Shown: piece after piece, positions 1 through 30,236 of the stretch
Numbering within the stretch: position 1 is the first letter of the stretch
Layout: every line of letters starts with the position of its first letter
Source of the DNA: Flavobacteriales bacterium
GTDB taxonomy: Bacteria; Bacteroidota; Bacteroidia; Flavobacteriales; Flavobacteriaceae
DNA: 33,490 bases
Direction of reading: 5' to 3'
Assembly (NCBI GenBank): GCA_027023475.1
Contig: JALVVJ010000127.1
Location: forward strand, 1-33,490
Notes under the pieces: model-generated
The model's input: the letters and a program-made list of their open reading frames with translations, nothing else
Database searches by the model: none
Told to the model about the DNA's origin: nothing
Program-made: the position numbers and the translations under genes

Positions 1-124
1 CCCACGCACGGGCGGGCGCGGGCAAGCGTAGCCACAGCCCGCGCAAAACCACGGCACTGCCCGAGCCGCATTTGAGCGGACAGCCCGGTCCCGACATCGC
101 ATAAGCGATGTGCGGGAGGCGCCC
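1..124 (-). repeat. GC-rich modular repeat, copy E (cut by window edge)
   Basis: Read on the minus strand from 124, this begins GGGCGCCTCCCG and runs off the window edge. It shares a 20-nt block at 67-86 exactly with copies at 15908-15927 and 23242-23261. It also contains a hairpin at 89-117 with arms ACATCGC/GCGATGT. The same hairpin at 23212-23239 and 16491-16517 has arms ACATTGC/GCAATGT. Unlike the other copies, no gene on the same strand is seen ending just upstream of it. Confidence 0.8.
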
Positions 125-2991: not shown

Positions 2992-4010
2992 CTAAATATT
3001 TTATTACCAGGTGGTAAATGACCATATTTTAGAAAATATCCATAAATTTTCTTTTTTTCTTCAATTTTAATTTGTACCTGATTTCCGTAAAATTCAGGGA
3101 CAAATCTCAAACTATTATCGATTAACCATTTATCAGAATATCTATTACCCGGATTAATCGTTTCACCATATTTCCACACATCTCCTGAGCTTAAATCAAT
3201 TGTTCCGCTGATGCATGTATAGCACACATATTGTCCAGAACTTGTAGCACGCAGGGAATATTGTACACCTTGCGGGCCTCCGGCTCTTCTTCGAATAGCT
3301 TCTATTTCTTTCTCCATTTTAGCAATATAATATGCAGTTCCTAAAAATAACAATCCATAAGCAAGCCATTTCAACGGAACTACATCAGTTGGTTCCGGAG
3401 TCGCAGCATCTGCTGCCTGAAATGTGCGAATTCCAAGAACAAATGAATAACTTAATTTAAGTTTTTCAATGGTAGCATTTGCTTTCGCCATTGCTAATTC
3501 GGGATTAGTATAAGCCAATGAATACTGTGCCATATCCGGTGCAGAAAATATCTGGCCATTCTTCTTGTAAAATCCATAATCGCCTAATTCTACCCTCTCC
3601 CCACTTGTCGTCGTATACGTATATCCTATGGGCCTATATATTGCATTTTCACCATATAGAGCAGTAGCATCGTCTTGGTTAGTTACTCTATTATCATATA
3701 TCATTTTCCCATTTATCTCAACCCAATCATCATTTTCCTTTCCATCACTATCAACATATCTTATAGGATTATTCAGGGTATAGTTATACGCCGAAAACCT
3801 GGGATACTTCTCCGCCAGCGGGTCCACACTCAACCACCTGGAAATCACCGGGTCATAGTAGCGGGCGCCGTAGTAATAGTAGCCCGTTTCTTGGTCGAGT
3901 TCTTTGCCGTTGAATTTGTAGCGCGTGGCGTAATCCCCGCCGGCATGCTGCGCGGCCATTTCCTCACCGAAGGGGAAGGTCCGGGTGGTATGTGAAACCG
4001 TGGCGGGCAA
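2988..4010 (-). CDS. truncated Rhs-core tip with GIY-YIG-like C-terminal toxin domain
   Basis: A 340-residue reading frame. Residues 31-91 carry the conserved end of an Rhs/YD-repeat core (YKFNGKELDQETGYYYYGAR, then WLSVDPLAEKYP and YNYTLNNPIRYVDSDG). A variable linker with a hydrophobic stretch at about 211-229 follows. The C-terminal domain (about 250-340) has KYGET (280-284), R290-Y291, E317 and LPPGNK (332-337). These have the order expected for a GIY-YIG nuclease: Tyr, YxGxT, Arg, Glu, Asn. A Tox-URI-type DNase is therefore likely, but this is inference. A full Rhs protein exceeds 1000 residues; here the core is missing and the frame starts inside the direct repeat at 3983-4053. It is an orphan tip whose delivery and expression are doubtful. 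Confidence 0.7.
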   Translation of the reverse strand: MPATVSHTTRTFPFGEEMAAQHAGGDYATRYKFNGKELDQETGYYYYGARYYDPVISRWLSVDPLAEKYPRFSAYNYTLNNPIRYVDSDGKENDDWVEINGKMIYDNRVTNQDDATALYGENAIYRPIGYTYTTTSGERVELGDYGFYKKNGQIFSAPDMAQYSLAYTNPELAMAKANATIEKLKLSYSFVLGIRTFQAADAATPEPTDVVPLKWLAYGLLFLGTAYYIAKMEKEIEAIRRRAGGPQGVQYSLRATSSGQYVCYTCISGTIDLSSGDVWKYGETINPGNRYSDKWLIDNSLRFVPEFYGNQVQIKIEEKKKIYGYFLKYGHLPPGNKIFR

Positions 4011-4053
4011 GGCAGTTGATTTTTACGGGATTAAGATAGGGAAAATTCGGGGA
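3983..4053 (+). repeat. direct repeat, right copy, flanking the Rhs module
   Basis: This is the same 71-nt sequence as 2401-2471 with 5 mismatches. Its left end overlaps the first codons of the Rhs-tip reading frame, so the ATG at 4010 lies in repeat DNA and may not be a native start. Confidence 0.85.
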
Positions 4054-4103
4054 ATTGTTGAAGATGTTTAAAAATCCCCTCCCCAAACTTCCCGCTTTTT
4101 GAC

Positions 4104-4126: not shown

Positions 4127-5926
4127 ATGAGTTTGGTCGGACCTTACGACTTGGCACGTGCATTGGGCATTCGCAAACAAAATGTTCTTTCCTACCTGCT
4201 GGGAGCCGGTTTGATGTATGTCCTCCGGCTCGATAAACTCAACCGGTTCTACGAACGTAACAAACACTTGCATGGCAAGGAATTCCTGGACAAAATCCTG
4301 GACGAAATAGGCGCAAAGCTCGAAATAGCCCCCGAAGACCTTCGCCGCATCCCCCGCGAAGGGCCCTTTATCACCGTGTCCAATCATCCGTTGGGTGGCC
4401 TCGACGGTATGCTCCTGATTAAACTGATTCTGGAAAAACGCCCCGACTACAAAGTGCTGACCAATTTTCTGCTGGACAAAATCGAACCCCTGCGTGATTA
4501 CTTCTTGCCCGTCAATCCCTTCGAAGACCGCAAGGAATCCAAATCCAGCTATCCCGGCCTGCGCGGTGCCCTGCAACACTTGCATCAAGGACATGCCATC
4601 GGTATATTTCCCGCCGGCGAAGTTTCCACCTTCCGCGAAGGAAACATCTACATCGACAAGGATTGGGACGAAGCGGCCCTTAAACTCATCTACAAGGCCG
4701 GTGTGCCCGTGATTCCCATCTATTTCCACGCCCGCAACAGCCGGGTGTTCTACTGGCTTTCCAAGCTGGGCCCCATGTTTCGCACCGCCCGCTTGCCTTC
4801 CGAACTTTTCAACAAAAAACGTTCTCACATCTACGTGCGCATAGGACACCCCGTCAAACCCGCCGAAATAAGCAAATTCCCCGACCACATAAGTTTTGGC
4901 GAATATGTGCGCCGCAAAACCTATCTCCTGGCCAAACCTTTCGAAAAAACACCGGCCAAACCGGCGGGCTTTTCGCTCAAAAAACTCTTTTCGGGCCGCG
5001 ACAAAAAAATCATCGACCCCGTGCCGGTGGAAAAAATCCTTCCCGAAATTCGGGCCCTGCGCAGTGCCGGTAAGCAACTACTCCAACGCAACCATTATCA
5101 GGTTTATTTGGCCGATAGCAAGGACATCCCCCATATTTTGCGCGAAATAAGCCGCCTGCGCGAAATCACCTTCCGCCGCATCGGCGAAGGCACGGGCAAG
5201 CGTTTCGATTTGGACAGCTACGACCGCCACTACAAACACTTGTTCCTTTGGGACGACCAGGCCCGGAAAATCGTAGGCGCCTACCGCATTGGCATCGGAC
5301 GCGAGATATACGAAAAATACGGCATCAAGGGTTTCTATATTCCTTCGCTTTTCCGCTTTGAGCCCGAAGCCGAATACATCCTCAAAAACGGACTCGAACT
5401 GGGCCGTGCCTTTGTTGTTCCCGAATACCAGCAAAAACCCTATCCGCTCTTTTTGCTCTGGCAGGGCATCCTGCACACCATCCTGCGCTATCCGCAGCAC
5501 AAATACTTGGTGGGCGGCGTGAGCATCAGCGACAAATTCTCCGATTTTTCGAAGGCCCTGATGATCGAGTTTATGAAATCGCACTACTACGACCCTTTCC
5601 TGGCCAACTACATCCACCCGCGTAAGGAGTTCAAAGTCAAGCTCAAAGATGCCGACAAGGATTTTATTTTCGAAGCCGCCCAGAGCGACCTCAACAAGCT
5701 GGACAAAATCATCGACGAACTGGAACCCAACTATCTGCGTATGCCCGTGCTCATCAAGCAATATATCCGTCAAAACGCCAAAATCATCAGCTTCAATGTG
5801 GATCCCGACTTCAACAACAGTGTGGACGCCCTGATGTATATCCGCATTCTGGACATACCCGAAAAAACGCTCAAACCCATCCTCGACGAATACGAGCAAA
5901 AATTGCGCGAGCAAAACGGCGATTAA
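4127..5926 (+). CDS. olsF: bifunctional O-/N-acyltransferase for aminolipid synthesis (OlsF-like)
   Basis: A 599-residue fusion of two acyltransferase domains. The N-terminal half is a PlsC-like glycerolipid acyltransferase: SNHPLGGLDG gives the HxxxxD motif (H87, D92), and FPAGE (161-165) is the second block. The C-terminal half (about 300-560) is the GNAT-like N-acyltransferase seen in OlsB/GlsB proteins, with LREITFRRIGEGTGK, LFLWDDQARKIVGAYRIG and LELGRAFVVPEYQQ. The published bifunctional protein OlsF (Serratia, Flavobacterium) has this layout: the C-terminal part N-acylates ornithine and the N-terminal part adds the second chain. Bacteroides glycine-lipid enzymes GlsB/GlsA are related but separate. 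Whether the amino acid here is ornithine, glycine or another cannot be decided. It acts at the inner membrane and is transcribed alone. Confidence 0.8.
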   Translation: MSLVGPYDLARALGIRKQNVLSYLLGAGLMYVLRLDKLNRFYERNKHLHGKEFLDKILDEIGAKLEIAPEDLRRIPREGPFITVSNHPLGGLDGMLLIKLILEKRPDYKVLTNFLLDKIEPLRDYFLPVNPFEDRKESKSSYPGLRGALQHLHQGHAIGIFPAGEVSTFREGNIYIDKDWDEAALKLIYKAGVPVIPIYFHARNSRVFYWLSKLGPMFRTARLPSELFNKKRSHIYVRIGHPVKPAEISKFPDHISFGEYVRRKTYLLAKPFEKTPAKPAGFSLKKLFSGRDKKIIDPVPVEKILPEIRALRSAGKQLLQRNHYQVYLADSKDIPHILREISRLREITFRRIGEGTGKRFDLDSYDRHYKHLFLWDDQARKIVGAYRIGIGREIYEKYGIKGFYIPSLFRFEPEAEYILKNGLELGRAFVVPEYQQKPYPLFLLWQGILHTILRYPQHKYLVGGVSISDKFSDFSKALMIEFMKSHYYDPFLANYIHPRKEFKVKLKDADKDFIFEAAQSDLNKLDKIIDELEPNYLRMPVLIKQYIRQNAKIISFNVDPDFNNSVDALMYIRILDIPEKTLKPILDEYEQKLREQNGD

Positions 5927-5936
5927 TTTTTTATTT

Positions 5937-6184
5937 GGGCGCCCCGCCGCACACGTTCGGAGCGCCTGCGGCGCATCGTCCGCCGCTTCGCGGTGACGGA
6001 GCACGCTTGCGGACGGACGTTCCTCACGTGGCGCCGTCGCGTGCTCCGCTCCTATCTTGCTTGCATCCGGCGGTTTTTGTATGGCGGCGTGCGTATGCCT
6101 CCTCGTCGGAGCTCGGAGCCCCCGCCGCCGCACAAAAACTTTCGCCGGCTGCTGCGCAAGGATACCGCTGCGCCCGCTGGCGCG
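5937..6184 (+). repeat. GC-rich modular repeat, copy C
   Basis: This 248-nt GC-rich element starts GGGCGCCCCG 11 nt after the acyltransferase stop and ends CCCGCTGGCGCG. A 29-nt block at 6053-6081 is identical to 29857-29885 (inverted, copy B), and the 3' ends of both copies agree. It contains an inverted pair around GTTTTTGT and ACAAAAAC. Short frames inside are rich in Arg and Pro and are not credible genes. The rest of the gap, 6185-6369, is AT-rich and shows nothing recognisable. Confidence 0.85.
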
Positions 6185-7354: not shown

Positions 7355-8302
7355 TCAAATCTCCTTTTCCACGCTATACATTCCCGACCGGCTGCCCTGC
7401 TGTAAAATCAGTTCGCCGATAAAGCCCGCCAGGAAAAACTGGCTGCCCAAAAGCATGGAGGCCACCGAAATATAAAACCACGGACGGTCGGTTACCAAAT
7501 GGGTGGGCAAGCCATGCCAGAGCTTGTAGGCCTTGATGCCCAAAATCACCGCCACCGCCACAAAGCCCACAAAAAACATCAAAAGACCCAAGCCGCCGAA
7601 CAAATACATAGGCCGCTTGGCAAAGCGCATGTGAAACCATAGCGTAATCAAGTCCAAAACGCCCTTGATAAAGCGGTCGGAACCGAACTTGGTGTGGCCG
7701 TATTTGCGGGCATGATGTATCACGGGCTTTTCGCCTATCCGGCCGAAACCGGCCTGCTTGGCCAGGAACGGAATGTAGCGGTGCATTTCGCCATAGACGC
7801 GGATGTTGTCGATAACCTCGCGGCGGTAGGCCTTCAACCCGCAATTGAAATCGTGCAAGCGGATGCCCGAAACCTTGCGCGCCGCCCAGTTGAACAGTTT
7901 GGACGGCAGGTTTTTGGTCAGCACGGGGTCCTTGCGTTTTTGCTTCCAGCACGAAACCAAATCCAGGTTTTCGTCCGTAAGTTTTTGAACCAGCCCGGGA
8001 ATTTCGGCCGGATCGTCTTGCAAATCGGCATCCATAGTGATAATCACATCGCCCTTGACCCGGCGGAAGCCCGCATCCAAGGCCTGCGATTTGCCGTAAT
8101 TGCGGCGGAATTTGATGCCGTGCACGTGTTTGTCGCGGGCGGCCAGGTCTTCGATAATGGCCCAGGAACCGTCCGTGCTGCCGTCGTCCACAAAAATAAT
8201 TTCGTAGTCGTAGTGCGGGCTAATCGCTTCGCCCAGCCGTTGATGCAGTTCGGGCAAGGATTCCGCTTCGTTGAGCAAAGGTATGACCACCGAAATTTTC
8301 AT
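7355..8302 (-). CDS. family 2 glycosyltransferase with membrane tail (DPM synthase/GtrB type)
   Basis: A 315-residue protein. The GT-A domain comes first: SVVIPLLNEAESLPEL at the N-terminus, IIFVDDGSTDGSW, RRNYGKSQALDAGF, the metal-binding DADLQDDP, and NCGLKAYRREV. Two transmembrane helices follow at about 229-260 and 272-298. This is the layout of the GtrB/ArnC/dolichyl-phosphate-mannose-synthase group, which passes a sugar from a nucleotide donor to a polyprenyl phosphate. Donor and acceptor are not determinable. Its ATG overlaps the stop of the DUF4199 gene as ATGA (8302-8299), so the two are translated from one message. This pairing with DUF4199 recurs in Bacteroidota from memory. Confidence 0.9.
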   Translation of the reverse strand: MKISVVIPLLNEAESLPELHQRLGEAISPHYDYEIIFVDDGSTDGSWAIIEDLAARDKHVHGIKFRRNYGKSQALDAGFRRVKGDVIITMDADLQDDPAEIPGLVQKLTDENLDLVSCWKQKRKDPVLTKNLPSKLFNWAARKVSGIRLHDFNCGLKAYRREVIDNIRVYGEMHRYIPFLAKQAGFGRIGEKPVIHHARKYGHTKFGSDRFIKGVLDLITLWFHMRFAKRPMYLFGGLGLLMFFVGFVAVAVILGIKAYKLWHGLPTHLVTDRPWFYISVASMLLGSQFFLAGFIGELILQQGSRSGMYSVEKEI

Positions 8303-9588: not shown

Positions 9589-9870
9589 ACTCTGCGCGAC
9601 TCTGTGCCGTACTCTGTGCGACTCTGTGGTTAAATTTTTATAAACCACAGAGGATGCAGCGTTTATTTCACAAAGTAACACAGAGGGTTAATTTTATGCA
9701 AGATTATTCCGTAAACAAAGTAGTTATGTCCTTCAATGTTTACAGTAGCGGAAAGGAATAATAAATTCCGTGAAACTCTGTGACGTACTCTGCGAAATGC
9801 TGTGGTTAATTTGAATTACAAAAATGCTATGCGACACTGTGCAGAATGCCGCGAAATGTTGTGGTGAAAC
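9589..9870. repeat. degenerate CTCTGTG-type intergenic repeats
   Basis: At least four diverged units of the type 'actctgtg-cg-actctgtggttaaat' occupy this gap. Direct copies are near 9589-9638, 9769-9815 and 9826-9870, and an inverted copy is near 9643-9695. The first direct and the inverted unit form a perfect 10-bp inverted repeat, CTCTGTGGTT (9622-9631) and AACCACAGAG (9643-9652), with an 11-nt loop. Similar CTCTGTG sequences recur in Bacteroidota intergenic DNA from memory. No gene is seen in 9530-9882. Confidence 0.75.
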
Positions 9871-15338: not shown

Positions 15339-15641
15339 ATGTGGATTTTAAACATCACCTTCCATCCCGACGATTCCGTGCGCCAAGCGTTGTTGGACTA
15401 TTTGCGTGCCCGGTTGATTCCCGCCATTACCGTCGGCGGATTGCTCCATTCGCCGGTGCTTATGGAAATTCACATCCACAACGCCCCCGGCTTTGCGTTG
15501 CAGTTCGATGTTACGGATGAGGCGGATTTGCAAGAATTTATGGAAAAGTATTGGCCCGGGTATCGAAAGGCGATTTGGGAGCGGTTTGGCGAATCGGTGC
15601 CGTTTTTTATTACCCGGATGAAAAAGATTTCCGCCAAGTAG
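15339..15641 (+). CDS. DUF4286 family protein
   Basis: A 100-residue protein of the DUF4286 type. Hallmarks are MWILNITFHPDDSV at the start, an amphipathic helix with W/Y residues (DYLRARLIPA), the central VLMEIHIHNAPGFALQFDVTD, and LQEFMEKYWPGYRKAIWERFGESVPFFITRMKKI at the end (the last part read as two blocks). The size and strand-helix pattern suggest a ferredoxin-like alpha/beta fold. No function is established. It is the last gene of the run beginning at 11507, separated from GH3 by 2 nt, and the GC-rich repeat island begins 14 nt after its stop. Confidence 0.85.
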   Translation: MWILNITFHPDDSVRQALLDYLRARLIPAITVGGLLHSPVLMEIHIHNAPGFALQFDVTDEADLQEFMEKYWPGYRKAIWERFGESVPFFITRMKKISAK

Positions 15642-15654
15642 TTTTTGATTTTCA

Positions 15655-16047
15655 GGGCGCCCCGGCGCCAGGTTTCGGGGCCCCGCCGGCGGGCGGATGC
15701 CCGCGGCGGCCGGCCGGACGTTGGAACGGGATTTATCGACGCCCCGGCCCCGCGGCGAAGCCGCGGGGCCGGGGCGTTTCGTTGGTTTACAGTCGAATAC
15801 GTCCGGCCATCCGCCCGGCGCGCTGCTGCGCGCCGCGGCGGGGCACCGGCCGTTGCTTCAAGCGGCGGAGCGCTTTCGCACCGGCCGGCCCGAAATCCGT
15901 CGCCGTCGGGCTGTCCGCTCAAATGCGGCTCGCGAAAAGCCGGTTTTTGTAAACCCGGCGCCGTGGTCTCTTGCGCTGCGAGCCCCCCTCGCCGGAACAA
16001 AAAATACGGCTTTCGCTTCGCCGCATAACCGCTCCCATCCCTGGCGC
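15655..16047 (+). repeat. GC-rich modular repeat, copy A
   Basis: A 393-nt element starting GGGCGCCCCGGC 14 nt after the DUF4286 stop and ending CCATCCCTGGCGC. It holds a perfect hairpin (arms 15739-15756 and 15760-15777, loop GAA), a 20-nt block shared with copies D and E (15908-15927), and a 26-nt end block identical to 23352-23377. Its 5' half matches the 5' half of copy B (inverted at 30236 downward) in order and structure. Confidence 0.85.
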
Positions 16048-16129
16048 TTGGGCTCGGGCGGCAGGCCGCCCTCGAATAATGAACACCGATCATTTGAACG
16101 GCGATTTGCGATTTTCGTTCTCCTACTGT

Positions 16130-16720
16130 AAACATTGAAGGCGAAACCGCGTAGCGGGTTCGCCGCTTCCCGAGGAGACCGAAGGGCTCCGAGGGCCGCG
16201 AAGCAAGACCAACGGCGAAGCGAAGCGGAGCCGGAAGGGCTTGCGAAGCTGCGAAGGGAGACAAACGCGAAGCCGAAGCCAGAGCGTGCCGGCTCCCGGA
16301 GCACCGGAGCGAGACCGTCAGGGCTCGCGGAGGGCGGAACAAGACAAGGCGTTGCCTTTGGCACAGGCCCCGGGAAGCCGCCGGCTTGTGGAGCTGGCGG
16401 GGAGACAAGCCGCGGATTTGCGCGCTGGCTATGGGAAGGCGATGGCTCCCCGCCTTTGCAAAGGCAGACCGCAGGGCTGCCGGAACTTGTCCCGCACATT
16501 GCGCAGCAATGTCGGGAGCCGCGGAGCAAGACAAAGGGCGCCGGCGCCGCGCGTGAGCGCGGGGCCGGCGGCGCAAAAAAACGGCGGAATTTTACGGTTG
16601 AGGCGGTATTTTATCGCGTGTTTCAGAAAAAACGCTTCGCCGCTAAAACTTTTGCGCCGCCGGCAGCGGAATTTTCATTCCGCCGCCGGCGCCCTGACGG
16701 CTTGTGGAGCAAACAAAAAA
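16130..16720. repeat. GC-rich degenerate repeat island
   Basis: The stretch between copy A and the LptD-like gene contains many diverged units of the type 'GCGGAGCAAGACNAAGG' or 'GGAGNNAGACNANGG', interspersed with GC palindromes. It also has the hairpin module at 16491-16517 shared with copies D and E. All long frames crossing it encode Arg/Gly/Ala/Pro-rich low-complexity sequence, so I call it noncoding. Confidence 0.6.
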
Positions 16721-16752
16721 CTGCTGACAAAAAACATTCGCCATATTTTGCC

Positions 16753-16760
16753 TATTTTTG
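16753..16760 (+). promoter_or_regulatory. -7 promoter element (TATTTTTG)
   Basis: TATTTTTG matches the consensus, 23 nt before the TTG start at 16784. No TTTG -33 box is seen at a normal distance. Confidence 0.45.
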
Positions 16761-16783
16761 AAGGGCTATAAAACACGGTATTT

Positions 16784-23203: not shown

Positions 23204-23377
23204 GGGCGCCTCCCGTACATTGCTTGCGCAATGTCGGGACCGGGCTGTCCGCTCAAATGCGCAGCCGGCCCGCTCTTGCCCTGCAAGCGTGGCGGCCGTG
23301 GCTCCCCACTGGTCGCCCCGTCGCCACGGCAGGCCTACGGCGTGCCGACTGCGCATAACCGCTCCCATCCCTGGCGC
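23204..23377 (+). repeat. GC-rich modular repeat, copy D
   Basis: A 174-nt element starting GGGCGCCTCCCG 50 nt after the DUF6048 stop, with the hairpin at 23212-23239, the 20-nt shared block at 23242-23261, and the 26-nt end block at 23352-23377 identical to copy A. It also has an inner GC palindrome around 23320-23348. The rest of the gap to 23470 holds no gene; 23460-23470 is a displaced nhaC end. Confidence 0.85.
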
Positions 23378-23470
23378 AATTTATTCTTTGCCATCGGCGG
23401 TGTTACGTATAACACGTTTTCAAAAGTTCATTGATGAAAAAATCACTCCACCGACAAATTTACCCCCGCC

Positions 23471-23507
23471 TAAACCTGATTTTTATGCGGAAATAGGCAA
23501 AAATCAA
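23471..23507 (+). repeat. 37-bp direct repeat, left copy (displaced nhaC 3' end)
   Basis: A perfect copy of 25399-25435, same orientation. Read on the minus strand in the nhaC frame it encodes the last conserved nhaC residues, followed by Arg-Arg-Gly and a TAA at 23462-23460. It therefore looks like an earlier end of nhaC. Confidence 0.93.
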
Positions 23508-23553
23508 AATAGGGATGCTTACCCGGCGTATTATTTCGACGAGAATTTTTTCA

Positions 23554-23561
23554 TAACTTTG
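23554..23561 (+). promoter_or_regulatory. -7 promoter element of the cassette (TAACTTTG)
   Basis: TAACTTTG matches the consensus, 24 nt before the ATPase ATG at 23586. It lies inside the inserted unit, so the cassette carries its own promoter. Confidence 0.6.
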
Positions 23562-23585
23562 TTAATAACAAATGAAGAATATTTT

Positions 23586-24824
23586 ATGCCAAGAATAAAA
23601 ATAAAAAATTTTGGCCCCATCAAAGATGGATGTTTGGAAAATGGTGGTTGGATTGAAATAGATAAAGTCACGGCATTCATCGGAAACCAAGGAAGTGGCA
23701 AAAGCACAATAACCAAGCTGATTTCCACATTTATGTGGATAGAGAAAGTGCTCTTTCGCGGTGATTATGATAGCAAATGGTTCAAACGAAAAAACCGGTT
23801 TAAAAATACGATTCTTCCTTACCACCGTCTTGAAAAATATTTGTCAAAAGAGTCAGTTATCGTTTATCAGGGTGAAGTTTTCGACATTTCGCTCAAAGAC
23901 GACAGGTTGCAAATCACTAAAAAAAAAGCCGGCTATGCACTCCCGCAGATTCTCTTTGTGCCAGCCGGAAGGAATTTTGTGGCCTACGTAAAATCGCCTA
24001 AAATGCTCCGGCTGGCAAGCGGCTCCTTGCTCGATTTTATCGATATGTTCGAAGAAGCAAAACGTAGTATTAGCAAAACAGTTGAACTCCCGTTTAACAA
24101 TGTCAAAGTAAACTACGACCGGCTAAACGACAGGTTGAATTTATTAGGCCCCGGTTATCGCATCCCGCTTTTCGATGCGGCCAGTGGCTTTATGTCGGTA
24201 GTTCCGTTATATTTGGTTTCATCCTATTTAGCTCAAACGGTAATAAATATTAATGATGACAATGCCGCCTTATCCGGGTTGGAAAGGGAAAACTTTAAAA
24301 AAGAACTGGAAAAGATATTAACCGAGGACATGCCGGACGAAATGCGTAAAATAGCCATTTCGTCCTTGGTCAAACGTTTTGTCAAAAAATCGTTTATCAA
24401 TATTGTGGAAGAACCCGAACAGAACCTGTTCCCTTCGTCGCAATGGAATTTGATGAAAAAATTATTGGAAATTAATAATTCCAAACCGGCTAACCGTTTT
24501 ATTTTTTCAACCCACAGTCCCTATATCATTAGCTATTTGAGTTTAAACCTCAAAGCCTATATGGTCAAACAAATGATAGAACAAGCTGATGAAAAAACCA
24601 AATCGAATGCCTTGGAAAAATTAAAAAACTTGCAAGAAATATCATTGAACAGTTTAATTGCACCCGGCCAATTGAATATTTATCAGGTTACCGATAACGG
24701 TAGTGTTACTCGCTTGCCCGAAACCTCCGGCATTCCGTCCGACAATAACTTTTTGTATAACTATTTGGACCGGGCCAATAATTTGTATGACGATTTGCTG
24801 GAAATCGAAGATATGGTCGAATAA
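23586..24824 (+). CDS. AAA/OLD-like (AAA_15/AAA_21 type) ATPase, putative defence protein
   Basis: A 412-residue SMC/ABC-type ATPase. It opens with IKNFGPIKDG, typical of RecF/OLD-like proteins. Walker A is GNQGSGKST (33-41); a signature-like AASGFMS lies at 198-204; Walker B is VEEPEQNLFP from V274; and the H-loop is STHSPYI with H310. A helical insert fills 50-190. About 95 residues follow the H-loop, with no Toprim domain as in true OLD nucleases. Such ATPases act with a separate effector in anti-phage systems (PARIS, Septu and similar). The ATG at 23586 is chosen because the longer frame would cross the promoter and the GC-rich repeat. The nuclease-like partner starts 14 nt later. The defence role is inferred from context. 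Confidence 0.85.
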   Translation: MPRIKIKNFGPIKDGCLENGGWIEIDKVTAFIGNQGSGKSTITKLISTFMWIEKVLFRGDYDSKWFKRKNRFKNTILPYHRLEKYLSKESVIVYQGEVFDISLKDDRLQITKKKAGYALPQILFVPAGRNFVAYVKSPKMLRLASGSLLDFIDMFEEAKRSISKTVELPFNNVKVNYDRLNDRLNLLGPGYRIPLFDAASGFMSVVPLYLVSSYLAQTVININDDNAALSGLERENFKKELEKILTEDMPDEMRKIAISSLVKRFVKKSFINIVEEPEQNLFPSSQWNLMKKLLEINNSKPANRFIFSTHSPYIISYLSLNLKAYMVKQMIEQADEKTKSNALEKLKNLQEISLNSLIAPGQLNIYQVTDNGSVTRLPETSGIPSDNNFLYNYLDRANNLYDDLLEIEDMVE

Positions 24825-24838
24825 ATTAGCGGATTCCA

Positions 24839-25344
24839 ATGACTGTCCTTGATTTTTTTCAAAACCAATGTGCCGAGGCGCCACAAAGCAATTCCAAATT
24901 TTATATCGTCGATGACCGGAATCAAACCCCGGCATATACAACGACCGAAAGAATCGATGAAAAAATTACCGAAGTGGAAAACCCTAACGGGAAAAATATT
25001 GTTTTTACACCCATCGACCACTGTTTAATTACCGGTAACAATCCCAAAAGATGCGACGGAATGCTGACGGGCGAAAATTTCCTCTTTTTGGTAGAAATAA
25101 AAGACCGGAAAAGAAAAAGGTTCGCCGCTGCAAAAAGGGAAGCCAAAGAACAACTCACCCAAACCATTGCATTGCTCGCAAAACCCATCCCGATTTGGAT
25201 AATTTATTCCCTAAACAAAAAGCATACTTTTCCTTTGTTCGCATACCGGGATTCGTCAGAAATATCGAACATTCCGAAAAAGAAAAATTTAAAGAAAAAA
25301 CCGGTTTTATTTTTGTCATCAACACCCGGATTATAATTGAATGA
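24839..25344 (+). CDS. small PD-(D/E)XK-like nuclease partner, frameshifted
   Basis: About 168 residues if one frameshift is corrected. D73 in CDGM and E86-I-K88 in FLVEIKDRK form a D-x12-E-x-K motif, typical of PD-(D/E)XK nucleases; a strand precedes each. A basic helix (KRKRFAAAKREAKEQL) follows. The initial frame runs to 25336, but after the A-run at 25180-25183 it becomes unnatural (IPIWIIYSLNKK). Shifting by one base from 25180 gives THPDLDNLFPKQKAYFSFV, VRNIEHSEKEKFKEKTGF and an end at 25344 that read like real protein. One A seems missing. It could be mutation, programmed slippage or an assembly error. The catalytic motif lies before the shift. It is probably the effector of the upstream ATPase. 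Confidence 0.65.
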
Positions 25345-25387
25345 AGTTTTTTGCCTCCAACTAAAATAATGCGGATTCTTTAAATGT

Positions 25388-26830
25388 TCACCTTTTCTTA
25401 AACCTGATTTTTATGCGGAAATAGGCAAAAATCAAGGTCATCACCGGACTGATAAGATTAAAGAAAGCAAACATCCAATAATCTTGCGTGGGCACGCCCA
25501 GCATTTTGGAATTGTAGGCGCCGCCCGTGTTCCACGGAATAAGCACCGATGTCACCGTGCCCGAATCTTCCAGCGTCCGGCTGAGGTTTTCGGGTGCCAG
25601 ACCGGCATCATCGAAGGCCTGTTTATACATCTTTCCCGGCACCACAATGGCCAAATACTGATCCGATGCCGTGGCGTTGAACAAAATACAAGTCAAATCC
25701 GTGGCCGCAAATAGGCCGAAAATGCCTTTGAGTGTTTGCAACAGAAACAAGCTGATACGTTTCAGCGCACCCACGGCTTCCATCACGCCGCCGAAAAACA
25801 TAGCACTGATAATCAGCCAAATGGTCGAAAGCATACCCGTCATTCCGTCGCCCGAAAACAAGTCTTTGAGTAAGGGCTCATCCGTGGGAATGCTGGTTTC
25901 GCCCACAATGGATTGGGTAATCAGCCGGTAGCCGTCGCGCAAATTTAAATGAGCGGTTCCGGCCAAATGCGTGAGCAAATCCCGCTGGAAAATCAAAGCC
26001 GCCACCGCGCCCAACACAATGCCCGCAAACAGGGCCACCAACGGCCGTGTTTTGAGCACAATCAACACAATCACCACCAAAGGCACCGCAAACAACCAGG
26101 GCGACACATTGAACGAGCTCCGTATGGCTTCCAAAAGAGCCGCATAATGGCCGGCGGACGGTTCCGCATGATGCCATCCAAGGAAAAGGAAGATAAGGAA
26201 CGCAAGCGTTATCGAAGGCACGGTGGTGTAGAGCATATAACGCACATGCGTAAACAAATCGGTGCCCGCTACGGCGGATGCCAAATTGGTGGTGTCCGAA
26301 AGCGGCGACATTTTATCGCCGAAATAGGCCCCCGAAATCACTGCGCCCGCAATCATAGCCGCATCGTAGCCCATGGCTTTACCGATGCTCATCAATGCGA
26401 TGCCCACGGTGGCCGTAGTGTTCCACGAACTGCCCGTGGTAATCGAAACCACCGCGGCAATCACCAAGGCTGTGGCCAAAAAAACCTGTGGATTGAGCAA
26501 TTGCAAGCCATAGTAAATCATGGTGGGAATAATACCGCTCAATAGCCAAATGCCCGACAAAGCGCCTACAAACAGCAAAATCATAATAGCTCCCGATGTT
26601 TGTGCAATGTTTTGCGACACGTGTTCCAACATACTGTCATAGGAAATGCCTTTCCGGTAGCCCATCCATCCGGCCAGGAGCCCGGCTAAAATCAAAGCGA
26701 ATTGATTGGGACCCGATGTGGCACCGTCGCCAAAAACACGGCTATTTACGTATAGCAAAACAATCAAAAGTGCCAAAGGAACAAGCGCTTGTAACAAATT
26801 GACGGGCGTCCGGGACTGCGGTTTTTCCAT
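25388..26830 (-). CDS. nhaC: NhaC-family Na+/H+ antiporter
   Basis: A 480-residue inner-membrane protein with about 11-12 hydrophobic segments. Diagnostic stretches are ALVIAAVVSITTGSSWNTTA, AGAVISGAYFGDKMSPLSDT, a second-half SGDGMTGMLSTIWLIISAMFF, ILFNATASDQYLAIVVPGKM, and SGTVTSVLIPWNTGGAYNSK. These match the NhaC antiporters, which exchange sodium for protons. Length is typical. Its 3' end carries the right 37-bp repeat, and the last four codons (Phe-Lys-Lys-Arg) come from the inserted cassette, whereas the displaced copy ends Phe-Arg-Arg-Gly. The change is confined to the extreme C-terminus, so the transporter is likely intact. A TACTTTTG promoter element lies at 26878-26871. Confidence 0.92.
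   Translation of the reverse strand: MEKPQSRTPVNLLQALVPLALLIVLLYVNSRVFGDGATSGPNQFALILAGLLAGWMGYRKGISYDSMLEHVSQNIAQTSGAIMILLFVGALSGIWLLSGIIPTMIYYGLQLLNPQVFLATALVIAAVVSITTGSSWNTTATVGIALMSIGKAMGYDAAMIAGAVISGAYFGDKMSPLSDTTNLASAVAGTDLFTHVRYMLYTTVPSITLAFLIFLFLGWHHAEPSAGHYAALLEAIRSSFNVSPWLFAVPLVVIVLIVLKTRPLVALFAGIVLGAVAALIFQRDLLTHLAGTAHLNLRDGYRLITQSIVGETSIPTDEPLLKDLFSGDGMTGMLSTIWLIISAMFFGGVMEAVGALKRISLFLLQTLKGIFGLFAATDLTCILFNATASDQYLAIVVPGKMYKQAFDDAGLAPENLSRTLEDSGTVTSVLIPWNTGGAYNSKMLGVPTQDYWMFAFFNLISPVMTLIFAYFRIKIRFKKR
25399..25435 (+). repeat. 37-bp direct repeat, right copy (within nhaC 3' end)
   Basis: Identical to 23471-23507. It covers the codons for LIFAYFRIKIRF of nhaC on the minus strand; beyond it this copy reads Lys-Lys-Arg and a TGA at 25390-25388. 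Confidence 0.93.
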
Positions 26831-29758: not shown

Positions 29759-30236
29759 CGCGCCAGCGGGCGCAGCGGTATCCTTGCGCGGCAGCCGGCG
29801 AGGGTTTTTGTGCCGGCGGCGGGGGCTCCCGGAGGAAGAGACCACGGCGCCGGCCCTACAAAAACCGCCGGATGCAAGCAAGATATGAGCGGAGCACGCG
29901 ACGGCAACGCGTGAGGAACGGGCTTCCGCAAGCCGACCTGGCTATGATAGCCGGCCGGTCCCGCCAAGTGAACGCCCTGTGATGCGAAGCAGCACAGTAT
30001 GCGTGAACTTGTGCGGGAGGCGCTCCGTCGTCGCGAAGCGGCGGCCGAGGCCCCGCCGCGGCGCGCATCAGCGCGCCGGGCGGATGGCCGGATATAAACC
30101 TTTGAAAATCAACCGAAAATCCCCGCCCCGCGGCGAAGCCGCGGGGCGGGGATGCCTGAACATTCATTTTCATCCGGCCATCCGCCGCGGGCATTCGCCC
30201 GCCGGCGGGGCCCCGAACGCGATTGCCGGGGCGCCC
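29759..30236 (-). repeat. GC-rich modular repeat, copy B
   Basis: A 478-nt element read on the minus strand from 30236, 22 nt after the ABC permease stop, to 29759. It combines the 5' half of copy A with the 3' half of copy C. A 15-bp hairpin with GAA loop (30120-30134/30138-30152) differs from the copy A hairpin in sequence but keeps pairing. The hairpin is framed by an inverted GCGGATGGCCGGA. The block 29857-29885 is identical to 6053-6081. No gene is seen in 29637-30258. Confidence 0.85.

Follow-up and report, generated by a model that had tools for sequence, protein, structure and literature searches.

A folded, modular repeat related to Flavo-1 lies behind T-tracts at gene edges in a Flavobacteriales genome

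The stretch of 33,490 nucleotides analysed here (the window), which is contig C127 of a 2.29-Mb draft genome of a Flavobacteriales bacterium (197 contigs, 95% complete), contains five GC-rich elements of similar build close to genes. This raises the question whether such elements are mobile repeats, parts of mRNA 3' ends or genes of structured RNAs. All five copies recorded in the first-pass annotation are present (Table 1), with B and E each one base shorter than initially delimited, and their ends read exactly GGGCGCC ... TGGCGC wherever they are visible; the 3' end of copy A lies outside the window. The mosaic character described for them was borne out by self-comparison of the window, which revealed shared blocks among A, B, C, D and E. 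A 26-nt block is identical between C and D, as is a 21-nt block which can also be read in A; furthermore, B and E are 90% identical over 81 nt, and C and E 87% over 77 nt. According to the gene calls, copies B, C, D and E indeed follow a stop codon on the same strand at distances of 11 nt (B, behind the gene at 4127-5926 and preceded by the T-run TTTTTTATTT), 14, 50 and 22 nt. Copy A is an exception to this rule: it faces the start of the gene called at 173-550.

The complete copies in the window comprise 174-477 nt and possess two large exchangeable modules each. In copy A the hairpin module TCCCGCACATCGC... and the core box GGGCTGTCCGCTCAAATGCGGCT were found, and in copy C the core box GGGCTGTCCGCT (15908-15919) is followed by the second hairpin module and the 3' box CCGCTCCCATCCCTGGCGC.

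Table 1. Copies of the element in the window (R1, model built from compact copies of other genera).
Feature	Position	Strand	Remarks
Copy A	1-124	-	Cut by the contig end, 3' part lost; GGGCGCC 5' end at 124
Copy B	5937-6183	+	247 nt; variant 3' end GATACCGCTGCGCCCGCTGGCGC; weak match to R1 at 6029-6183 (E = 0.29)
Copy C	15655-16047	+	393 nt; arms of the terminal stem at 15657-15661/16043-16047; 5' hairpin module large and palindromic
T-rich 5' junction of copy C, TTTTTGATTTTCA	15642-15654	+	Directly 3' of the stop codon ending at 15641
Copy D	23204-23377	+	174 nt; most compact complete copy in the window
Copy E	29760-30236	-	477 nt; mosaic of a B-like 3' part and a C-like 5' part

The 19-mer at the 3' end (CCGCTNCNATCCCTNRCGC) occurs 174 times in exact form in the genome of the window and GGGCTNTCCGCT occurs 172 times, while the reversed control sequences were not found at all; copy C alone yielded 76 BLAST matches. 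These observations confirm that the repeats are real, sharply bounded by the T-run and by GGGCGCC ... TGGCGC, and present far above chance. In a sample of 670,767 bases of this genome, 65 3' ends were detected, 57 of them with a clear 5' end (length 174-768 nt); the other eight copies were dropped because their 5' end was not clear. The genome counts given here rest on exact patterns. Model R1 is a poor counter in this genus because the modules are long, and in the four element-bearing genomes it produced only 2-4 matches apiece.

Beside the elements themselves, some features of their surroundings were recorded. On the 3' side of many copies (e.g. window 16048-16780 and 9730-9758), other repeats (GCGCGATAAATCGCGC... 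and CTACTGTAAACATTGAAGG) and GC-rich filler precede the next gene. Nested within the hairpin modules at four loci of the same genome (L019, L021, L025, L028) is another element, roughly 200 nt long (GTTGCAGCAAGC ... GCTTGCTGCAACGC). Behind copy D, an exact direct repeat of 37 nt (23471-23507 and 25399-25435) flanks the gene at 23733-24824, the start of which resembles a P-loop ATPase by eye, and in the sister genome G200 the interval from D to the next shared gene is occupied by different DNA; the region 23378-25440 is possibly a mobile gene cassette. Another direct repeat of 97 nt (87% identity) is found at 2397-2493 and 3979-4075, the first copy directly behind the gene ending at 2396.

The search for relatives led to a known family. 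Compact copies from 20 loci of other genomes of the same class were compared with Rfam, and 19 of them matched the Flavo-1 RNA (RF01705) across the full model of 76 positions at E ≤ 1, six with a score above the gathering score. The supposition that no named family resembles the elements was thus mistaken: their compact relatives are Flavo-1, although the Flavo-1 annotation is on the strand opposite to that of the first-pass annotation at every matching class locus. Flavo-1 is listed in Table 1 of Weinberg et al. 2010 (PMC2864571) and is named in the section of a 2022 review that deals with the most abundant small RNAs (PMC9029176). The literature search yielded no recognised description of the repeat as a REP, MITE or intergenic repeat in Bacteroidetes, flavobacteria or termite Treponema.

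The window itself matched no Rfam family up to E = 1, group II introns included, and the genome of the window had no match to Rfam Flavo-1. To R1, which was built from 21 compact copies of other genera (21 of 29 class loci; own genus left out), copy D showed an end-to-end match (E = 1.4e-5, model positions 1-87), and copy C was matched at 15883-16047 (E = 3.9e-5), i.e. in its 3' part and not from its true 5' end. Among the other window copies, B was matched weakly (Table 1), A at E = 5.2, and E not as a whole. By the matches to D and C, the inner stem GGGCUN/NAUCCC with two CCGCU boxes is common to the Flavo-1 relatives and the window copies, and the latter are filed as a diverged relative of Flavo-1, not as Rfam members.

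Single strands of the elements fold into a common frame, which consists of a terminal stem GCGYN/NRCGC (5 bp), a 5' hairpin, the inner stem containing a single C.U mismatch, CCGCU boxes to either side and a 3' hairpin. In the genus of the window both hairpins are large modules. The structured nature of the elements, as it had been supposed, is strongly supported by the 21 compact copies: 97.7% of the cells are paired, 9 of 19 pairs changed on both sides, and the covariation score of 0.413 was reached in none of 500 shuffles (0.147 after shuffling) and not approached with slid partners (≤ 0.152). Additionally, 96 of the 154 ends among the matches listed showed the exact complementary GG plus 5' arm behind a T-rich stretch, whereas a mismatched arm was found in 3 of 154; the 58 ends lacking such a complementary arm were dropped. 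Six types of terminal arms occur, each paired with its complementary partner, and the element length in other genomes is 70-538 nt among the matches listed. The Rfam structure of Flavo-1 pairs the inner stem and the 3' hairpin only and includes neither the terminal stem nor the 5' hairpin.

The evidence on which strand folds is conflicting. The minimum-energy fold of copy D is the whole frame on both strands (z -4.1 on the plus and -5.9 on the minus strand). In the alignment of the 21 copies, G.T pairs outnumber A.C pairs (23 vs 3) for the strand of the first-pass annotation. The same strand is favoured in the 3' hairpin (20 vs 4 elements among the matches listed; spirochaete type 6 vs 0; own genome 21 vs 10, p = 0.07). 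In the 5' hairpin the ratio was 5 vs 5 (own genome 16 vs 9), and the spirochaete type pointed in the opposite direction (0 vs 7). The folding energy, in contrast, favours the Rfam strand (61 vs 15; own genome 37 vs 12), a lean which control stretches share (89 vs 45). A strand call from the G.T and A.C pairs was therefore abandoned, since it was repeated in other copies in the 3' hairpin only and is opposed by the energy.

The four same-strand copies in the window had suggested an element which targets gene ends. The genome-wide distribution does not follow this pattern. Copies located within an ORF call (15) and those not flanked by genes on both sides were left out of the placement. Of the 55 copies placed in the own sample, 30 lie behind a gene end, whereas the start of a gene is faced by the other 25; among the codirectional copies, 18 are parallel and 10 antiparallel (p = 0.18). 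In other genomes, from which copies longer than 200 nt with GGCGC arms were excluded as own-genus in all statistics, a gene end was found at the 5' side of 29 of 60 copies and a gene start was faced by 31 among the matches listed, with 15 parallel and 21 antiparallel copies among the codirectional ones. There is thus no strand rule. The expected distance bias was found, but in the own genome and at the 5' end only: this end lies at a median of 16.5 nt past a stop codon or at least 53 nt upstream of an opposite start. On the 3' side the spacing is wide, with medians of 355 and 248.5 nt. Among the matches listed from other genomes, the 5' end was not clearly nearer to genes than the 3' end. A relation between orientation and replication could not be used as a further criterion, because the GC skew of the contigs was too weak.

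A T-run at the 5' junction is a constant feature of placement. In 115 copies chosen without any condition on T, this base occupied positions -3, -2 and -1 in 80, 71 and 65%, respectively, and in the own sample GGGCGCC was preceded by T4 in 63 cases and by A4 in five. The T profile of the 57 own copies is biased, because their 5' ends were selected partly on T-richness. Copies at least 35 nt past a gene end start right behind a stem plus T-tract in 8 of 10 cases, in comparison to 300 of 1235 control T-runs (p = 0.0004). Terminator-like stems were not in excess among copies nearer to a stop (4 of 21) or among those which face a start (5 of 26).

These data bear directly on the proposal of a 3'-UTR or terminator element, in which the hairpin behind the stop codon would stabilise the mRNA 3' end or terminate transcription. 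The short median distance of 16.5 nt after gene ends in the own genome, the very stable fold of copy D and the 17 of 21 copies close to a stop that have no terminator-like stem ahead of them are in accordance with such a role. However, a position behind a gene end on the same strand holds for just those 30 of 55 own copies and 29 of 60 listed ones from other genomes, the others facing the start of the neighbouring gene. In addition, 8 of 10 genes with a farther copy already have their own stem and T-tract ahead of the element, and the T-tract of the element lies ahead of it and not behind a stem. This function is therefore considered unlikely.

Exact repeats of 2-9 nt at the two ends were not significantly more frequent than in shuffled pairs, neither in the 57 own copies nor in 89 copies among the matches listed; no target duplication was thus found.

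Comparison with sister genomes showed what happens at occupied sites. At the locus of copy C, an element follows the same gene in the genome of the window (G000), in G205 and in G200, and none was found within 420 nt after this gene in G198, G199, G201, G202, G203 and G204. In total 24 site comparisons, 14 with G205 and 10 with G200, were picked from flank matches. Sites where the flank match ended before the junction (C66:11525, C63:9190, C135:960, C185:17629 and copy D in G205) and single matches in G199, G202 and G203 were left out; C, D and E in G200 were kept as exceptions. Against G205, four sites had another 5' module, four were aligned but altered beyond the level of the flanks, four were alike, one was too short and one had no element. 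At the sites with another 5' module, alignment was absent or nearly so over the first 131, 207 or 336 nt or over all of the stretch within reach, whereas the flanks were 98.7, 97.3, 85.8 and 96.6% identical. The altered sites aligned throughout or nearly so, in pieces of 73-94% identity in comparison to 93-99% for the flanks, and the sites alike were 89-99.5% identical as far as the contig reaches. Against G200, one site was the same (copy D, 95%), eight were partly or wholly different and one had no element.

Thus, sites are often kept while the 5' hairpin has changed between sister species. The site of copy E has different interiors in G205 and G200, and at C19:40410 G000 and G200 can be aligned on both flanks of an element whose 5' part differs between them. 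At the locus of copy D in G205 the flank has diverged, and at a greater distance an element is present in inverted orientation. The combination of a kept site with a changed interior is unusual between sister species and would need a mechanism.

Presence and absence were observed as well. Directly behind the stop codon of the gene at window 7355-8302, an element is found in G200 but not in the window; conversely, G205 and G200 share the T-run at C135:15045 but not the element which follows it in the own genome. As the downstream sequences differ in both cases, rearrangement could explain them. Behind the shared T-run at C135:15045 (also L140 and L141), the three sister species continue with three unrelated sequences, one of which is the element, and this gene edge is therefore a rearrangement breakpoint. 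A clean empty site with both flanks was not found: 93 matches of 30 joined-flank sites crossed the junction by a few bases at most. At four sites both flanks lie on one contig of G205, 215-1126 nt apart, and the three which were inspected all contain an element. In the absence of a bridged empty site, most sites may predate the split of G000 and G205.

The T-tract could also be the trace of retroposition, in which RNA from the other strand, in the orientation of Flavo-1 and with the end ...CGCCC-AAAA, would undergo reverse transcription at a T/A tract. Read on the Rfam strand, the T-run indeed becomes a 3' A-tract of varying length, and this strand folds more stably in 61 of 76 cases. Nevertheless, the T-tract at C135:15045 is the target and not a tail, because G205 and G200 have it behind this gene edge as well, without the element, and a target duplication is missing. 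Retroposition is therefore very unlikely.

The distribution of the elements is patchy and crosses phyla. In the genus of the window, the 19-mer occurs in G205 (118 copies), G200 (158) and G202 (15) and is missing in G198, G199, G201, G203 and G204; it was found in 75 of 295 genomes of the same class including the own one, with no occurrence of the control in any of the 295. G200 and G205 probably correspond to the public MAGs "Flavobacteriales bacterium S143_64" and "T2_metabat1_scaf2bin.023", which showed identical counts. The hosts among the matches listed include Flavobacterium, Arenibacter, Mesonia, Mucilaginibacter, Niabella, Pedobacter, Foetidibacter and many MAGs labelled Treponema or Spirochaetales, many of which are, judged by their names, probably of termite-gut origin. 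In 22 genomes, every one chosen for a match, 1 to 583 copies each were counted (control 0). In the same count, fifteen likewise hit-selected genomes, reached via MAGs labelled as spirochaete (14) or Clostridiales Family XIII (1), contained 2-583 copies (control 0). The maximum of 583 exact 3' ends, more than three times the number in the genome of the window, was reached in the 3.1-Mb Spirochaetales MAG Gx481_bin132 (L251, L258, L262). The 60 copies in the MAG labelled Clostridiales Family XIII are possibly due to mis-binning, and the one or two pattern matches each in the genomes of L211 (Myxococcales), L218 (Nocardia) and L227 (Anaerolineae) may be chance.

At E ≤ 0.1, R1 matched 6 of 11 loci of other phyla (E down to 2.5e-13), with no match in L207 (Clostridiales label), L269, L211, L218 and L227, and five of the eight MAG loci from other phyla that were compared with Rfam matched Flavo-1. 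At one Treponema locus (L265), Rfam TD-2 RNA at 577-669 and 3614-3695, one match above and one below the gathering score, directly adjoins Flavo-1 copies, so that two annotated "sRNA" families lie side by side.

This distribution argues against the Rfam type label of Flavo-1 (Gene; sRNA), according to which the elements would be a family of small RNA genes. The label itself, the full-length matches at 19 of 20 class loci and the strong covariation speak for such genes. However, the copy number ranges from 0 to 583, with close relatives lacking any copy, and the hairpin content at one and the same site differs between sister species. Furthermore, the transcript data presented in PMC9723704 place Flavo-1 matches on either strand relative to transcribed regions, with many lying elsewhere, which is better explained by a DNA repeat than by an RNA gene. 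A small RNA family is thus quite improbable.

Among the known ways of spreading, a REP-like repeat moved by a Y1 transposase (TnpA-REP/RAYT or IS200/IS605) acting on folded single-stranded DNA appears attractive with regard to the short, one-sided, T-rich target, the folded ends and the missing target duplication. In addition, PMC6006769, in its account of the Bacteroidetes Y1 subclass 2.6, mentions flanking "atypical secondary structures" with copies elsewhere in the genome. Against this stands that no match to the Y1 transposase (PF01797) was obtained in G000, G200, G202 and G205, drafts of 88-96% completeness in which a gene may have been missed. Moreover, no element lies within about 1.5 kb of the six Y1 loci tested out of seven found, five of the six being in element-bearing genomes. 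A GT[AG]G foot is lacking, and the length is 70-768 nt instead of 21-65 nt. A Y1/RAYT partner in the own genus was therefore dismissed, and Y1-driven movement as such is held to be improbable.

Taken together, we consider it probable, if far from certain, that the elements are a dispersed, non-autonomous mobile repeat on the Flavo-1 frame, which is joined behind T-tracts and whose hairpins are exchanged by recombination. The element is a discrete DNA unit in one piece, the single strand of which folds into the constant frame carrying two exchangeable hairpins. It would join directly behind a T-tract, in one orientation and without target duplication. Such tracts lie behind stop codons, in terminators and, presumably, upstream of promoters, which would bring the elements to gene edges regardless of the direction of the gene. 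After placement they would persist, and their inner hairpins would be swapped by recombination with copies sharing the same ends; their mobility would be either slow or a thing of the past. We infer that insertion was the origin of the copies, that an enzyme acting in trans performs it and that recombination accounts for the exchange of hairpins; the promoter side of the T-tract argument is likewise presumed. A structured repeat, joining at T-tracts and recombination would account for the T-run, the missing strand rule, the patchy distribution and interiors that changed while their sites were kept. The nonautonomous mobile repeat suggested at the outset is accordingly the best fit among the readings, even though no clean empty site and no Y1 match in the four element-bearing genomes accompany it.

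If the repeat reading is true, numerous "sRNA genes" annotated in Bacteroidetes and Spirochaetes would be dispersed repeats, the Rfam model, which lacks the terminal stem and the 5' hairpin, may be drawn on the wrong strand, and the 583 exact 3' ends in one genome of 3.1 Mb would make the mode of spread directly testable. More speculatively, and with considerable doubt, Flavo-1 could be the compact form of a transposable unit crossing phyla and not a small RNA family. Such a unit would insert behind T-tracts without target duplication by an as yet unrecognised enzyme and trade its hairpins like cassettes at occupied sites.

In comparison to known systems, the elements share with REP sequences and BIMEs that many palindromic, hairpin-forming units are dispersed between genes and are patchy among relatives. 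REP sequences and TnpA-REP, as defined in PMC6006769, are characterized by a GT[AG]G foot and a hairpin of 21-65 nt. In contrast, the elements described here have no such foot, are much longer, are closed by one terminal stem and begin with T-run plus GGGCG at the 5' junction, and a Y1 gene was not detected in the four element-bearing genomes of the genus.

Like bacterial MITEs, the elements are short, have complementary ends and occur in high copy number. Terminal inverted repeats are present, if only of about 5 bp, but unlike in MITEs, a target-site duplication was seen neither in the 57 own copies nor in the 89 among the matches listed, and no matching transposase was found.

Group IIC introns insert behind terminators, and group II introns start with GUGYG. 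The joining of part of the copies directly after a terminator T-tract resembles the former, whereas the elements do not start with GUGYG and are not confined to terminators.

The closest resemblance is that to Flavo-1, with which the elements share the inner stem, the paired boxes (AGCGG/AGCGG there, CCGCU/CCGCU here) and a variable hairpin. They differ from the Flavo-1 model in the terminal stem and the 5' hairpin, in the large exchangeable modules and in the opposite strand. The elements are thus not categorically new; they are an enlarged and diverged branch of Flavo-1.
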